Positions 5,481 through 11,449 of a stretch of DNA of 41,138 nucleotides are shown here, one piece after another. Positions within the stretch are counted from its first letter, which is position 1. The number at the start of each line of letters is the position of its first letter. A model generated the notes under the pieces. The model was not told the origin of the DNA and did not search any database. It saw only the letters and a list, made by a program, of their open reading frames with translations. The position numbers and the translations under genes are program-made. The DNA comes from Deltaproteobacteria bacterium (GTDB lineage: Bacteria > Myxococcota_A > Polyangia > JAAYKL01), in NCBI GenBank assembly GCA_016935665.1, contig JAFGQN010000125.1, forward strand, positions 1-41,138, given 5' to 3'.

Positions 5481-6092
5481 TTACAAGGCGCACCGAAAAC
5501 CAATATTAAAATCAGCTGTACCATGCCACCCTGTTTAAATCCTTTTTTGCATTGCCGCTGGAATATCGGCTGGTGGTGCCGGCCCGGCAGGCATATTCCC
5601 ATTCCGCTTCAGATGGCAACCGCAGTCCCGCCCAGTCACAATATCGTTTGGCGCTGTTGAAGTCGACGCCTGTAACGGGTTGTTCCGGTTGATTGTACGC
5701 GCTGTCTTCTAAATAGTCTGGATGGGGCACGTCCCGGTTTTCACTGAGAAAGAGTTGATACTCTCGATTGGTAACGGGATATGGCCCCAGTTGAAATGGC
5801 TGGATATGAACCACACGCACGGGACCTTCGTTATCCTGACGCCCCGGTTCGTCTGGCAACGATCCCATCATGATTCGTCTGCTGCTTTTTCATCGGGAAA
5901 GCGCCGTTGCAGCATGCCGGGCTTTTGCACCTGCACGACATATCCCGGAGCACCGACGCATGACGGTTTGAGGCCAACTGTGTCTGACCCTGGGTGATGT
6001 TGCGCGGCAGCTGTTCCCGGTATCATTTTCAAAAGTCCCGCAGTGGACGCGGCAGCACCCAGTTTTAAAATATCACGTCTGTGAATAGCCAT
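5481..6092 (-). pseudogene. Decayed formylglycine-generating-enzyme/SUMF1-like protein with Tat signal
   Basis: Three pieces of one gene lie in different frames. First, from ATG 6092 (AAGGAG ribosome binding site), a twin-arginine type signal, RRDILKLGAAASTAGLL, then about 45 residues to a TGA overlapping the next frame at 5871-5868. Second, from 5871 to 5512, the front of an FGE-sulfatase domain: MMGSLPDEPG, then GLRLPSEAEWEYACRAG, ending at AWYS with a TGA. Third, just one frame over, the exact family C-terminus NIGFRCAL followed by TAA (5483-5481). In intact members 100 or more residues lie between AWYS and GFRCAL, including the WEW-containing core. So there is an internal deletion plus a frameshift near 5868-5880. 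FGE-type proteins oxidise Cys to formylglycine in sulfatases or act in other ways (ergothioneine synthesis, phage receptor-like folds); this copy should be inactive. Confidence 0.8.
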
Positions 6093-6150
6093 TTCATTCT
6101 CCTTATTCGGCACGCTTATATGGCGACCGAGTAGGGTTTGCGAATAAAGT

Positions 6151-7245
6151 TCAGTACATCACCAGTTCAAATCCATTGGTGACGTATTTGCCAATGGCGG
6201 CGTGTTCCCTCATATCACCAATGAGTGGGAGGTTTTGCTCCCTGGCGAGGTCGACCACATTTCGGGCGGGGTCTCCGGTGGAACAGCCGTGGGCAGCGGT
6301 TTTGCATACCCCGGCGATGATGCCCTGTGCCTTTGCCAACGCAAACAGTTCGCCGAATTTGCCGTCGCGCTTTGCCAGACACTGTGTCGCCTCTCCCTCC
6401 AGAATGATTTTCACCTGATGGCCTTGTTGCTTTAAATCCAGCGCATGTAAAAAGGCGTGATTTTGTTTGCAGGGGTTGTTGGAAAAAACCACCAGCAGAA
6501 GCTTTCGCATGGCGTTGTTTCCGCCGAGCACGGCGCGCAATATCCCTGGGCGCTCTTTGAGAGTTCGGCTTCCCGCCCCGAATCCGACACGGATGGGGGT
6601 CATGGGTGGGATGGGGCCAAAGTGGGTGGCCAGTGCCTTAACAAACGCCGCACCGGTGGGGGTAGTGAGTTCATATGCCACTTCGGTTCCTTCTACGGGA
6701 ACACCTTCCAGGATAGTGAGTGTTGCGGGGGCGGGCAGAGGCAGCACGCCGTGTTGCGTGTTCACAAATCCCCGGCCCAGAGGCACCCGCGCGCAGGCGA
6801 CAGCGGCGTTCAAATGGTCAATTCCGGCAGCCGCGGCCACGACATCAATGATGGAATCCACTGCGCCCACTTCGTGAAAGTGCACTTTTTCAACTGTTGT
6901 ACCATGTACTTTGGCTTCGGCCTGCGCCAGCACTTCAAACACGGCGAGACTGATGTGCTTTACATGGTCGTTCAGCTTTGAATTTTCAATCATGTCTCGA
7001 ATGCACGAGAGGTGGCGATGGGGCTGCTGCTGCATTACATTCACATGGAAGCGACTGACCTCGATGGCGCTTCGAATCTCTTTTTCGTGCCTGATTGTGT
7101 ATCCTGTCAGGGGCAGTGCACTAACCGCCTGTTCAATCACACAAAAGGGGACTCCCACATCCAGCAATGCCGATACAATCATATCGCCGGAAAGGCCACT
7201 GAAACAATCCAGATAGAGCGTGAGTTTTGTTGGTTCGGTATTCAT
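6151..7245 (-). CDS. LarC N-terminal domain (nickel pincer cofactor) fused to DsrE-like domain
   Basis: A single 364-residue frame. Residues 1-243 match the first part of LarC/DUF111: YLDCFSGLSGDM at the N-terminus, FHEVGAVDSIIDVV around 123-136, LPLPAPAT, TPTGAA, and GFGAGSR before LRAVLGG. LarC inserts nickel into the pyridinium pincer cofactor of lactate racemase-type enzymes. The usual second half (LarC2, with the NIDDM-type start) is absent. Instead, from Met246 on, the sequence reads MRKLLLVVFSNNP, then ILEGEAT, and ends GKYVTNGFELVMY, which is characteristic of small DsrE/DsrF-like proteins. No stop or frameshift separates the parts. Met246 (ATG at 6510-6508) has only a weak GGCGG upstream, so internal initiation is possible but not obvious. 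No larA, larB or larE is in the window. It lies 133 bases downstream of hydA on the same strand. Confidence 0.85.
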   Translation of the reverse strand: MNTEPTKLTLYLDCFSGLSGDMIVSALLDVGVPFCVIEQAVSALPLTGYTIRHEKEIRSAIEVSRFHVNVMQQQPHRHLSCIRDMIENSKLNDHVKHISLAVFEVLAQAEAKVHGTTVEKVHFHEVGAVDSIIDVVAAAAGIDHLNAAVACARVPLGRGFVNTQHGVLPLPAPATLTILEGVPVEGTEVAYELTTPTGAAFVKALATHFGPIPPMTPIRVGFGAGSRTLKERPGILRAVLGGNNAMRKLLLVVFSNNPCKQNHAFLHALDLKQQGHQVKIILEGEATQCLAKRDGKFGELFALAKAQGIIAGVCKTAAHGCSTGDPARNVVDLAREQNLPLIGDMREHAAIGKYVTNGFELVMY

Positions 7246-7344
7246 TTAGAGTTTCCTTTTTGAAATAATATAAAGATGTAAATGTCACGACGAAATCCCC
7301 GGGACCATATGAGGGTGTTGTAAAAGTCGTTTCGAAATCCCCCC

Positions 7345-7367
7345 GGCCCCCTTTTTCAAAGGGGGCC
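7345..7367 (-). terminator. Strong hairpin after hydA, possible terminator
   Basis: GGCCCCCTTT and its exact reverse complement AAAGGGGGCC are separated by 3 bases. It lies 12 bases past the hydA stop on the transcribed side. The stem is long and G+C rich, but a clear run of T does not follow on the minus strand. It may therefore act as an attenuating or mRNA-stabilising hairpin between hydA and the larC-like gene rather than as a classical terminator. C-run/G-run elements of this kind can also be dispersed intergenic repeats. Confidence 0.45.
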
Positions 7368-7378
7368 CAGTATTCATC

Positions 7379-9244
7379 TTATATTTGGGGTTTGGAACTT
7401 TGGTCCGTGTAAGTCGTGTGCAGCAGATGATGGGCCTTTCGACCACCGATGCCGTCGGTCAGAAAGTCTTTGTATAGACGCAGAACGGCGTCGTTCAAAT
7501 GTGATTTTCGCACCGTGTAGGCCATGTCTTCGGCGTATATGGCTTCGGCCCGTTTGCCACGGATTTCGATGTCGGTGGGAATGGGCTGACCACCGCCCCC
7601 TAAACATCCACCGGGACACGCCATGAATTCGATGAAATGGCATTGGCTGAATTTGCCCCCTGCGCGAATATCGTCCATGACTTTTTTAGCATTGGCAGTG
7701 CCGTGACAGATGGCCACTTTCAATGTGGCGCCTTTAAGCCAGTCCCAGCTGGGCACGACGTTCTGCAAAATTTGGGGAACATCGCCGACGGTGGCAATGG
7801 GCAGCTCCGCGTAACGCACCCCTTCAAATCCGCGTACCGGAATCACGTTGGCGTGCGCAAACAAATCCTCAATCTGAATGCCGCATACCAGTTCCACAAC
7901 GGTGCGAATCGCCGATTCCATCACGCCACCCGTGGCGCCAAAAATAACCCCCGAGCCGGTAGCAGAGCCAAACGGTTCGTCGAAATCACTTTTGGGCATC
8001 TTTGGCAGTTCAATACCGGCTTCCCGAATCAGTTTTCCAAGTTCCCGGGTGGTCAGGACATGGTCAATATCCCTGAAGCCGCTATCGGCCATTTCGGGAC
8101 GTGCGCATTCGTATTTCTTGGCCGTGCAGGGCATCAGTGATACCGACACAATATCTTTGGCGTCCAGACCGTTCAATTTCGCATAGTACGTTTTAATCAG
8201 CGCGCCAAACATTTGCTGGGGGCTTTTGGCGCTGGATACGTTGGGCAGATACTCCGGGTAAAACTGCTCAATGTACTTTATCCAACCTGGCGAACAACTG
8301 GTGAATTGCGGCAATGCAACGGATGCGTCCTTTTGCACCAGCGCGCCGTAAAGACGTTTTATAAGCTCTGTGCCTTCTTCGAGAATCGTCAGGTCCGCTG
8401 TAAAGTTGGTATCGAACACTTTGTCAAAGCCCGCACGTTTGAGCGCCGTGTTCATTTCGAAAGTCATGGGCGTCCCTGGCGCTTCTCCAAAGCATTCGGC
8501 AATGGCCGCTCTGGGGGCCGGCGCGGTTTGGATCACCACATGTTTTTGCGGATCATCAATGGCCTTCCATACATCGCATGTGGCATCCACCGTTTGCAGC
8601 GCGCCGGTGGGGCAGCGATTGATGCACTGCCCGCAATTGATGCAGGTGGTGTCGCCCAATGGCTGATTCATGAATGTTTGAATTTCGGTTTCAACACCGC
8701 GATTGGCGCTGACCAGCGCATGGACGCCCTGAATTTCGGCACAGGTGCGCTCACAGCGTCTGCACAGAATACATTTGTTGTTGTCGCGGATGACTGAAAG
8801 GCTGGAATGATCTGTCGTATATTGGGGATGCGCCACTTTGCCCAGTTCATACGATGTCACACCGTATTCCGCCGCCAGTTCCTGCAGTTCGCAGGTTTGA
8901 TTTCGATTGCAGGTCATGCAATCTCCGGCGTGTTTGGAAAGCATCAGCTGTAAAATATTTTTACGCGCTTTTCTTACTTTGGCGCTGCTCGTTTTTATTT
9001 TCATGGGCTCGGTAATGGGGTAGGCGCACGACGCCTGAAGCGTTCGTTTGCCTTCCACGTCCACCACACAAATGCGACACAATCCACCTTCGCACAAATC
9101 GGTGTGATGACACAGCGTGGGTATGCGTATCCCCAGCTGTTTTGCCGCATCGAGAATGGTGGTTTTCAGGGGAACGCGAATATCGATGCCATCGATATTC
9201 ACCGGAATTGTTGCACCAATGGCGATTATCTGTTCTGCTGACAT
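7379..9244 (-). CDS. hydA: [FeFe] hydrogenase catalytic subunit HydA/HndD
   Basis: A 621-residue enzyme that interconverts H2 with protons and electrons. N-terminal [2Fe-2S] domain with Cys45, 56, 59, 73; His-ligated [4Fe-4S] with His105, Cys109, 112, 118; two ferredoxin-type clusters with Cys158/161/164/168 and 201/204/207/211. The H-cluster motifs are TSCSPGW (315-321), MPCTAKKYE (371-379) and MACPGGCLGGGGQP (541-554), supplying Cys317, 373, 543 and 547. The usual second Cys of TSCCP, the proton-transfer residue in well-studied monomeric enzymes, is Ser318. Length and cluster set match the catalytic subunit of NADH-linked multimeric enzymes. It begins 2 bases after hydB, so it is the last gene of the response regulator-hydC-hydB-hydA run. 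Maturases HydE, HydF and HydG are not in this window. No Tat signal, so it is cytoplasmic. Confidence 0.97.
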   Translation of the reverse strand: MSAEQIIAIGATIPVNIDGIDIRVPLKTTILDAAKQLGIRIPTLCHHTDLCEGGLCRICVVDVEGKRTLQASCAYPITEPMKIKTSSAKVRKARKNILQLMLSKHAGDCMTCNRNQTCELQELAAEYGVTSYELGKVAHPQYTTDHSSLSVIRDNNKCILCRRCERTCAEIQGVHALVSANRGVETEIQTFMNQPLGDTTCINCGQCINRCPTGALQTVDATCDVWKAIDDPQKHVVIQTAPAPRAAIAECFGEAPGTPMTFEMNTALKRAGFDKVFDTNFTADLTILEEGTELIKRLYGALVQKDASVALPQFTSCSPGWIKYIEQFYPEYLPNVSSAKSPQQMFGALIKTYYAKLNGLDAKDIVSVSLMPCTAKKYECARPEMADSGFRDIDHVLTTRELGKLIREAGIELPKMPKSDFDEPFGSATGSGVIFGATGGVMESAIRTVVELVCGIQIEDLFAHANVIPVRGFEGVRYAELPIATVGDVPQILQNVVPSWDWLKGATLKVAICHGTANAKKVMDDIRAGGKFSQCHFIEFMACPGGCLGGGGQPIPTDIEIRGKRAEAIYAEDMAYTVRKSHLNDAVLRLYKDFLTDGIGGRKAHHLLHTTYTDQSSKPQI

Positions 9245-9246
9245 AC

Positions 9247-10455
9247 TTATGCTCCCATCCGACAGTCGGCATCCGGTGTTGCATCCGACGTTAATTCAAA
9301 TTCAGTGTGAAAGTGTTTAATCACATCAAGGAATATATTGGGGCTGGACTGCCCCAGACCGCATCTGGATGCGAGCTGCATCGTTTCTGCCAAATTCAAC
9401 AATGATGTAAATCGTTGCTTTTTGCAGGCGCCGTTTTTCAGCATTCGAATGCCTTCGAGCAGTTTCGCGTTTCCGTCTCTGCACGGGGTGCATTGACCGC
9501 AGGATTCATCTTCAAAGAATTCCATGAAGTTTTCGGCAATATCGAGGGCTTTGCGATTTTGTCCAAAGATGATTACCGAACCGCCGGTAGCCATATCTTC
9601 AAAACAGATGTGCCTGCAAAATTCCGAAGCGGGAACAAGGTGTCCCGATGCGCCGCCAACCTGGACACATTTGGCATTCTCGCCGCCTGTCTGTGCCAGC
9701 AGTTCCAAAACGGAAATACCCAGTGGAAATTCGTATACGCCCGGTTTTGTGCAATCGCCTGAGACACTGAAAAGTTTCGGCCCAACAGAGCCTTCCGTGC
9801 CCTGTTCTTTGAACCAGGACGCGCCTTTTTCAAATATGCAGGTTATCCATGCCAATGTCTCCACATTGTTTACTACTGTGGGATGATTGAGATACCCCAT
9901 GTCAATTGGAAACGGGGGTCTGTTTCTGGGTTCGCCTCGTTTGCCTTCCAGTGATTCGATGAGCGCCGTTTCTTCGCCACACACATATGCGCCGCCGCCC
10001 ATAAATATATGAATATCGAAATTGAGGTTGCTGCCCAGTATCTGCTTTCCAAGCAGTCCGTCCTTTCTGCGCCGGCGCAATGCTTCTTCGAGCTTTTCTC
10101 GAAGGTACACATACTCTGCACGCAGGTAGAGTATGCCTTCACTGGCGCCCACCGCATAGGCGGCGATGGTCATTCCGTCGAACACCAGCGATGCGTACTC
10201 ATCCAGAATAACTCTATCCTTGAATGTTCCCGGTTCACCTTCATCGGCATTACACACCACGAATTTTCTGTCGCTGTGAGCGAGACCGCAAAGATTCCAT
10301 TTTACCGATACGGGAAATCCCGCGCCACCACGACCTCGAATTCCTGAAGCGGATACCTTTGAGATGACCTTTGCTCTGGACATTGATAGTGCATTTTTCA
10401 GCCCTGTGCCTTGGGAGAGCTCGCTGAATGACAGTTTGTTTTTCAGAGTGTTCAT
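9247..10455 (-). CDS. hydB: NADH-binding hydrogenase subunit HydB/NuoF-like
   Basis: A 402-residue flavoprotein subunit. RGRGGAGFP (40-48) with CNADEGEPGTFKDR (68-81) forms the FMN site; GAYVCGEETALIESLEG (155-171) belongs to the NuoF core. A [4Fe-4S] cluster is bound by Cys319, 322, 325 (SCGQCTPC) and Cys365. The protein is essentially the NuoF core. It lacks the N-terminal thioredoxin-like [2Fe-2S] domain and the C-terminal pair of ferredoxin-type clusters that many electron-bifurcating HydB subunits carry. With HydC it should pass electrons between NAD(H) and HydA. Whether the complex also uses ferredoxin cannot be settled by sequence. The gap to hydC is 13 bases, with GGAG before the start. 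Confidence 0.96.
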   Translation of the reverse strand: MNTLKNKLSFSELSQGTGLKNALSMSRAKVISKVSASGIRGRGGAGFPVSVKWNLCGLAHSDRKFVVCNADEGEPGTFKDRVILDEYASLVFDGMTIAAYAVGASEGILYLRAEYVYLREKLEEALRRRRKDGLLGKQILGSNLNFDIHIFMGGGAYVCGEETALIESLEGKRGEPRNRPPFPIDMGYLNHPTVVNNVETLAWITCIFEKGASWFKEQGTEGSVGPKLFSVSGDCTKPGVYEFPLGISVLELLAQTGGENAKCVQVGGASGHLVPASEFCRHICFEDMATGGSVIIFGQNRKALDIAENFMEFFEDESCGQCTPCRDGNAKLLEGIRMLKNGACKKQRFTSLLNLAETMQLASRCGLGQSSPNIFLDVIKHFHTEFELTSDATPDADCRMGA

Positions 10456-10468
10456 TCGTTTATCTCCT

Positions 10469-10966
10469 TCAATTTGATGCAGCAGGCATTTGCTTGTGAA
10501 TGGATTTCAGGATGTCTTTTACATTTGCCGTGTTGATCTTCGTATGGGCCGTTTCGCTCACCAGCATTGCCGGCGCCTCACTGCAAAGACCGAGACAGTT
10601 GGTACGTTCGAGTGTCACCAAACCATCCGCAGTGGTTTGTCCAAACTCAATTCCCAATTCTGATTTCAGCGCATCCGCTATCTCTGTCGCGCTGGACATT
10701 TTACACGATATGGTTTGGCATACGCGTATGACATATTTTCCTTTGGGGCGATGGTCCAGAAAACTGTAAAAGGAGACTACTCCGTAAATCGCCGACGGTG
10801 CAATCTGCAACGTTTCGGCCAGCATTTTCATGACAGTGGCATCCGGGGTGACATTGTCCATACGCAATCGGTTTAAAATGGGAATAAGTGCACTTCGGGG
10901 TGAACCGTGCTGTGCAATCAGCTCATCGGATATTTGCTTGAGGAGGTCTTTACTGATGCGTTGCAT
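10469..10966 (-). CDS. hydC: NuoE-like [2Fe-2S] hydrogenase subunit HydC/HndA
   Basis: A 165-residue NuoE family protein: helical N-terminal domain, then a thioredoxin-like fold binding one [2Fe-2S] cluster through Cys83, Cys88, Cys124 and Cys128 (RVCQTISCKM and TNCLGLCSEAP). IYGVVSFYSFL is the typical family core. It docks on HydB and relays electrons between the NADH/FMN site and HydA. The start codon lies 2 bases from the stop of the response regulator gene, with AGGAGG about 30 bases into the coding strand and GGGAGG directly in front of the start. The tight packing indicates one transcript with hydB and hydA. Confidence 0.95.
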   Translation of the reverse strand: MQRISKDLLKQISDELIAQHGSPRSALIPILNRLRMDNVTPDATVMKMLAETLQIAPSAIYGVVSFYSFLDHRPKGKYVIRVCQTISCKMSSATEIADALKSELGIEFGQTTADGLVTLERTNCLGLCSEAPAMLVSETAHTKINTANVKDILKSIHKQMPAASN

Positions 10967-10968
10967 AC

Positions 10969-11355
10969 CTATCTGCCTCCCTTTTCAGTGTTCAATAACC
11001 GATGGACCACCGCCAGCAGTTTATCGGGGGTTGCAGGCTTTTCGAGAAAGTCATTTACCGGCAGCAATTCGTCATCGATGCCAAACGAAAATCCCGTGAC
11101 ACGGCCAATACTTGTCATCATCAGGATGGGGGTGTCGATATGAGCCGCTCTCAGGTCCTGGGCCAGATGAAAGCCGTCATCCGGTTCATCCATCATTACA
11201 TCCAGAATAATCACGTCGGGTTTTTGGGCTACGACCGCCTTCATCCCCAAAAGACGCGAACTCGCGGAATGCACCTCGAATCCTGCTTTTTCCAGAACAA
11301 TGCGACTGGCGTCGATTACATCCGGATCATCGTCCACAACAAGAATCTTTTTCAT
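10969..11355 (-). CDS. Single-domain response regulator heading the hydrogenase operon
   Basis: A 128-residue stand-alone receiver. KILVVDDDPD holds the acidic pocket, Asp52 in ILDVMMD is the phospho-acceptor, then MMTS and the Lys in FLEKPATPDKL complete the active site. There is no output domain. The ATG at 11355 has AAGGAGAG five bases upstream; a TTG directly before it is ignored. An insert, SFGIDDELLPVNDFLEK, before the switch Lys is slightly longer than usual. Similar receivers occur in front of hyd/hnd operons in some anaerobes, but their role is unclear. As first gene of the operon it could tune hydrogenase or an associated kinase by protein contact. It has no kinase next door. Confidence 0.92.
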   Translation of the reverse strand: MKKILVVDDDPDVIDASRIVLEKAGFEVHSASSRLLGMKAVVAQKPDVIILDVMMDEPDDGFHLAQDLRAAHIDTPILMMTSIGRVTGFSFGIDDELLPVNDFLEKPATPDKLLAVVHRLLNTEKGGR

Positions 11356-11449
11356 CAAATCTCTCCTTTGTATTCTGATTTTATTCAGTCATTGAAAATG
11401 GATTAAAGAATGCTTCATGTCGGCGTCTCTTCGGTGCAGCGGATATGTT

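Follow-up and report, generated by a model that had tools for sequence, protein, structure and literature searches.

A LarC1-DsrE fusion gene directly behind the [FeFe]-hydrogenase gene hydA in two genomes from a single genus

The locus and the fusion gene

The fusion gene is the last of a minus-strand gene run in the window, that is, the whole stretch of 41,138 nucleotides analysed. The run begins with a response-regulator receiver-domain protein (10969..11358), followed by NuoE/HydC-like (165 aa, 10469..10966) and NuoF/HydB-like (402 aa, 9247..10455) subunits, both assigned from sequence and gene order, and by a hydA-like [FeFe]-hydrogenase catalytic subunit (7379..9244; PF02906 and PF02256). 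The larC1-dsrE fusion gene itself (6151..7245, stop included) encodes a 364-aa protein in one unbroken ORF, which runs from an ATG at 7245 down to 6151 and has an AAGGA-type ribosome site upstream.

The initial annotation had proposed that an N-terminal LarC domain and a DsrE-like domain share this ORF, and both the profile matches and the predicted fold agree. The LarC1 domain covers residues 8-241 (6523..7224, minus strand). PF01969 (Ni_insertion) matches residues 10-247 with an E value of 8e-85, and TIGR00299 (LarC1) scores 204 bits against a cut-off of 90. The LarC1 motifs DCFSG..GDM, PHRH, VHFHEVGAVDSI and TPTGAA are all found in the fusion, and residues 10-245 match a solved full-length LarC in sequence. 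LarC2 is absent from the protein, as had been noticed from the sequence: the PF01969 match reaches only profile positions 1-241 of 375, and in an alignment with full LarCs LarC2 is replaced from the linker onward in the fused copies. The junction (nucleotides ~6510-6523) reads ...RAVLG(241)-GNNA-M(246)RKLLLVVFSNNPC. Its linker G-N-N-A-M (residues 242-246; 6508..6522, minus strand) aligns with the start of LarC2 in full-length LarC, placing the junction where the usual linker had been expected. The DsrE-like domain takes up residues 246-364 (6154..6510, minus strand). In a model of the whole protein, the LarC1 half was well predicted and the DsrE half poorly; the fold comparison of this model left LarC1 uncovered, and a joint alignment of the whole fusion was set aside, its DsrE fragments being misplaced.

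The fusion is found again in another genome of this genus of uncultured bacteria (G001; contig record JAFGWT010000475.1, Deltaproteobacteria bacterium ZodW_Metabat.284), where the junction falls at the same point and the protein is 78% identical over 364 residues. In G001 the start of the fusion overlaps the hydA stop by 4 bp, while in the window 133 bp separate the fusion from hydA and it is preceded by a ribosome site of its own. Met246 at the junction (ATG at 6510) is not conserved, G001 having no Met there. Separate translation of the DsrE half from this internal ATG is possible in the window but not conserved; because of the missing Met, G001 probably produces the DsrE half only within the fusion protein.

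The shared junction excludes chance and misassembly, the error that the initial annotation had feared at this point. An accidental, functionless fusion or an assembly artefact is thus extremely improbable. It could draw on the fusion being found in two genomes only, on the G001 record being a metagenome-assembled genome and on the window's genome being in 249 contigs, but the two proteins share the junction and 78% of their residues, the frame is open throughout with dN/dS values of 0.07-0.11, and the conserved residues are retained. The other arrangement that would have spoken against a genuine fusion, a LarC2 nearby in relatives together with a stand-alone DsrE gene, was not found; LarC2 occurs only within a full LarC on another contig.

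The DsrE-like half and its stand-alone relatives

The last 119 residues of the window protein have no match to the Pfam DsrE profile (PF02635). A stand-alone homologue (~49% identical) scored 24.6 bits against a cut-off of 22.7, the best score among 12 family members, 4 of which matched at E 0.1 or better. The AlphaFold2 model of the domain (pLDDT 86.6) gave Z scores of 10.6-13.4 with ten DsrE-type structures, including 3mc3 (13.4), YchN (12.3), TusD (2d1p_A; 10.8) and DsrE (2hy5_A; 10.6); the next entry scored 6.9. On this model, the 119 residues are a DsrE-type domain with a predicted alpha/beta fold. A PDB sequence search with the DsrE profile returned nothing useful and a profile comparison with TusD gave no reliable match, the likeness coming from the fold comparison only.

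Conserved cysteines, expected of a sulfur-transfer DsrE protein, are present. These are Cys259 (Cys14 of the domain; 6469..6471), Cys314 (Cys69; 6304..6306) and Cys321 (Cys76; 6283..6285), all on the minus strand, the last two forming a Cys-X6-Cys pair whose first member lies at the end of strand 3. The three are invariant in 12/12 aligned members, and six more members agree by eye. For the position of TusD Cys78, inspection by eye favours Cys69 at the end of strand 3, whereas the TusD sequence alignments place Cys76 there. DsrE3A has a Cys-X7-Cys arrangement, the first Cys being the established active site (PMC4175335), in contrast to the Cys-X6-Cys of the fused domain. Compared with the DsrE/TusD/YchN family (PF02635), fold and paired cysteines are common to both, but the fused domain has a third, N-terminal invariant Cys, and the window member is without a Pfam match and joined to LarC1. 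No candidate for a DsrF/DsrH or TusB/TusC partner gene was recognised among the ORFs around the fusion.

Stand-alone relatives of the domain occur in metagenome-assembled genomes of Myxococcota, Elusimicrobia and Spirochaetes (loci L085-L094). They are 45-54% identical and have the same three cysteines; unlike the fused domain of the window, they are unfused and have their own start codon. No recognisable lar genes stand beside them in the loci read. At E 1e-15 the family was detected in 5 of the 377 genomes of the phylum; in the class, 14 of 317 genomes gave matches at E 1e-12, of which the weaker ones belong to a neighbouring DsrE-like family. Within the genus, the fusion is the sole member of the family in the window's genome and in G001, and the third genome (G002) has none. 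Among the matches read outside the genus in these phylum and class genomes, none carries a LarC1; their frames open with the DsrE domain or shortly ahead of it, and a Met lies directly upstream in nearly all. Long open frames of 554, 453 and 313 aa, considered as candidates for a wider fusion, proved to be read-through without LarC1. A scan of 84,980 named genomes with two DsrE peptide patterns, which can miss divergent members, gave 11 loci, fused in the G001 record only.

LarC1-DsrE is a new domain architecture within the known LarC family, so far seen in two genomes of one genus. The fusion had been unfamiliar to the initial annotation, and no LarC-DsrE fusion is described in the literature searched.

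Two further observations concern DsrE-like genes. In the class, a second, more distant DsrE-like family with the signature ..FNGxPMCFxHVLLNALDM.. and another Cys pattern was seen at L106-L112 (G007, G008, G422, G507, G419, G417 and G028). At L033:622-1128 (G009), a C-GCAxxG-C-C redox-type protein lies directly upstream of a stand-alone DsrE gene.

Origin of the LarC1 half and the other lar genes

Both fused copies retain, unaltered, every one of the 49 columns that at least 95% of full-length LarCs conserve. Of the 75 family-invariant columns, 74 are kept in both, with one conservative change in one copy. The LarC1 tree groups the two fused copies in a single clade (0.974), next to the full LarCs of the window's genome and G001 (0.980); the order of the fused and full LarC clades relative to G002 has a support of only 0.312. 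NG86 dN/dS values between the window's genome and G001 were 0.068 for the fused LarC1, 0.111 for the fused DsrE and 0.074 for the LarC1 of the ordinary LarC, all approximate because dS (~1.6-1.8) is near saturation. Both halves of the fusion are under purifying selection and, judged from 0.068 against 0.074, the fused LarC1 is under as strong a constraint as its counterpart in the ordinary LarC.

The ordinary LarC is encoded elsewhere in the window's genome and is full length (PF01969 over 1-375). Its gene lies behind, and overlaps with, a larB-like gene; the LarB assignment is based on this overlap and on the general AIRC Pfam domain. A larE gene was also found, having the CXXC-C motif of cluster-type LarEs defined in PMC9283937. 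No larA (Lar_N, PF09861) was matched in the window's genome, G001 or G002, three assemblies that are 92-95% complete and agree with each other, while Lar_N matches were obtained in five other genomes of the family (G003, G004, G007, G008 and G012). The search for larA, larB and larE that the initial annotation had recommended was thus successful for larB and larE, and also for a full larC, but not for larA. Similarly, its statement that LarC2 is missing holds for the fusion and not for the genome, where a full-length LarC is found on another contig. Outside the ordinary full LarC, no second LarC2 or LarC2 remnant was detected in the window's genome or in G001.

A genome with LarB, LarC and LarE and no detectable LarA makes the fusion an extra paralogue, not the cell's LarC. 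We are nearly certain of this anatomy and origin: a duplicate of the 5' half of larC became linked, in frame, to an otherwise stand-alone dsrE. The partial duplication took place in the lineage of one genus, with the join exactly where LarC2 normally begins. Compared with LarC, the nickel-pincer nucleotide (NPN) cyclometallase (PF01969; PDB 12bi-12bl for the full-length protein, 6bwo for LarC2), the LarC1 of the fusion is complete, but DsrE stands in place of LarC2, the CTP site is lost and the genome has an ordinary larC in addition to this gene. In Lactiplantibacillus plantarum, larC is split into larC1 and larC2, and LarC2 follows by a programmed frameshift. LarC1 as a separate product is common to that system and the fusion, in contrast to the partner domain, which is unrelated, and to the lack of a LarC2 frame after the fusion. 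LarC1 can therefore be retained by selection without a LarC2 of its own, which suggests that it has its own function. Kept without LarC2 and tied to a sulfur-type domain, the fused LarC1 is a rare natural experiment.

Candidate functions of the fusion

We take the CTP site to lie in LarC2, as assigned in the 6bwo series. With LarC1 conserved and LarC2 gone, the fusion should not itself carry out CTP-dependent nickel insertion. LarC uses CTP for this step, and about 15% of the genomes analysed in the same work have larB, larE and larC without larA, a pathway with no known NPN-using enzyme, for which non-LarA NPN proteins were postulated (PMC11796402). The LarC1 half of the fusion would likely still bind the ligand of LarC1, be it nickel, the dithiocarboxylate precursor P2TMN or the finished NPN. 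The task of the DsrE domain and its Cys-X6-Cys pair would be to protect the thiocarboxylate sulfurs or to repair or resulfurate them; alternatively, the domain may pass the cofactor to a non-LarA acceptor. A link of sulfur handling with cofactor maturation, raised by the initial annotation, is still conceivable. A role of the fusion in carrying, repairing or handing on NPN or its precursor, with no CTP chemistry involved, seems possible but doubtful, and the genes co-located with it in both genomes are hydrogenase and not lar genes. The extra LarC paralogue together with such ligand handling is, as a whole, our best explanation, which we put forward tentatively. The more specific proposal of a CTP-independent NPN-handling protein (carrier, repair enzyme or direct NPN user) in an NPN-making genome without LarA is quite unlikely as it stands. 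If true, it would be a pointer to the non-LarA branch that is missing from NPN biology, and the fusion gives a concrete protein for seeking non-LarA NPN handling.

Other roles can be proposed for the two halves. The DsrE domain might be a persulfide relay for a [4Fe-4S]-type LarE, with LarC1 as the docking arm to the pathway intermediate. The invariant Cys-X6-Cys pair would suit such a sulfur donor, as would the motif in the genome's LarE, which is that of LarEs taking sulfur from IscS persulfide (PMC9283937), and the transfer of sulfur species to TusA by DsrE3A with its Cys-X7-Cys (PMC4175335). In vitro, however, a general cysteine desulfurase can serve LarE (PMC9283937). Moreover, G002 has LarC and LarE yet no DsrE of this family, and neither a tusA nor a desulfurase gene was recognised in the fusion's gene run, making this role unlikely. 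For the replaced domain, a structural role comes into question. LarC2 hexamerises, multimers are likewise formed by DsrE, YchN and TusBCD proteins, and the DsrE domain could take over this task, giving homo-oligomers or mixed complexes with the full LarC that tune LarC activity. LarC1 is intact at a clean domain boundary and the matches of the DsrE fold include a chain of the heterohexameric TusBCD, but the three cysteines are kept although a purely structural role does not need them, and we give this possibility little credence.

The position of the gene invites an explanation of a different kind, in which the fusion serves the adjacent [FeFe] hydrogenase in redox sensing or protection and LarC1 is a metal or nucleotide scaffold unrelated to NPN. 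The proximity to a hydrogenase operon had been remarked on in the initial annotation; the fusion is indeed directly behind hydA in both genomes, with the start/stop overlap in G001, but the hydrogenase is of the [FeFe] type (PF02906, PF02256) and so needs no nickel. Moreover, the same gene run occurs in G006, its HydA being 69% identical, yet hydA is not followed by a fusion there, so that the hydrogenase does not require the fusion. In addition, the window fusion is set apart from hydA by its 133-bp spacing with a palindrome in between, and unchanged LarC1-specific residues would not be expected of an unrelated scaffold. We regard this role, too, as improbable. In G002, no HydA closer than 49% was found.

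The palindrome between hydA and the fusion (7336-7365; CCCCCTTTTTCAAAGGGGG) is GC-rich, single in the window and absent from the G001 junction; a repeat element and a terminator are both conceivable. Neither promoter nor terminator scans rose above chance. In G001 (L034:2576-12000), the fusion is preceded by a TonB-dependent receptor with weak similarity to B12 receptors, a membrane protein with likeness to an ECF substrate component but no family match, a response regulator and hydCBA, and is followed by genes for a methyltransferase, a CbiQ-like protein and an ECF ATPase; cobalamin-type genes lie farther on. In the window, the fusion is not followed by any of these transporter genes. Behind it there is an FGE-sulfatase-domain protein on the minus strand (5512-6113) in two frames, a TAT-like leader (5868-6113) and the FGE part (5512-5871), which are possibly a frameshifted or decayed gene.
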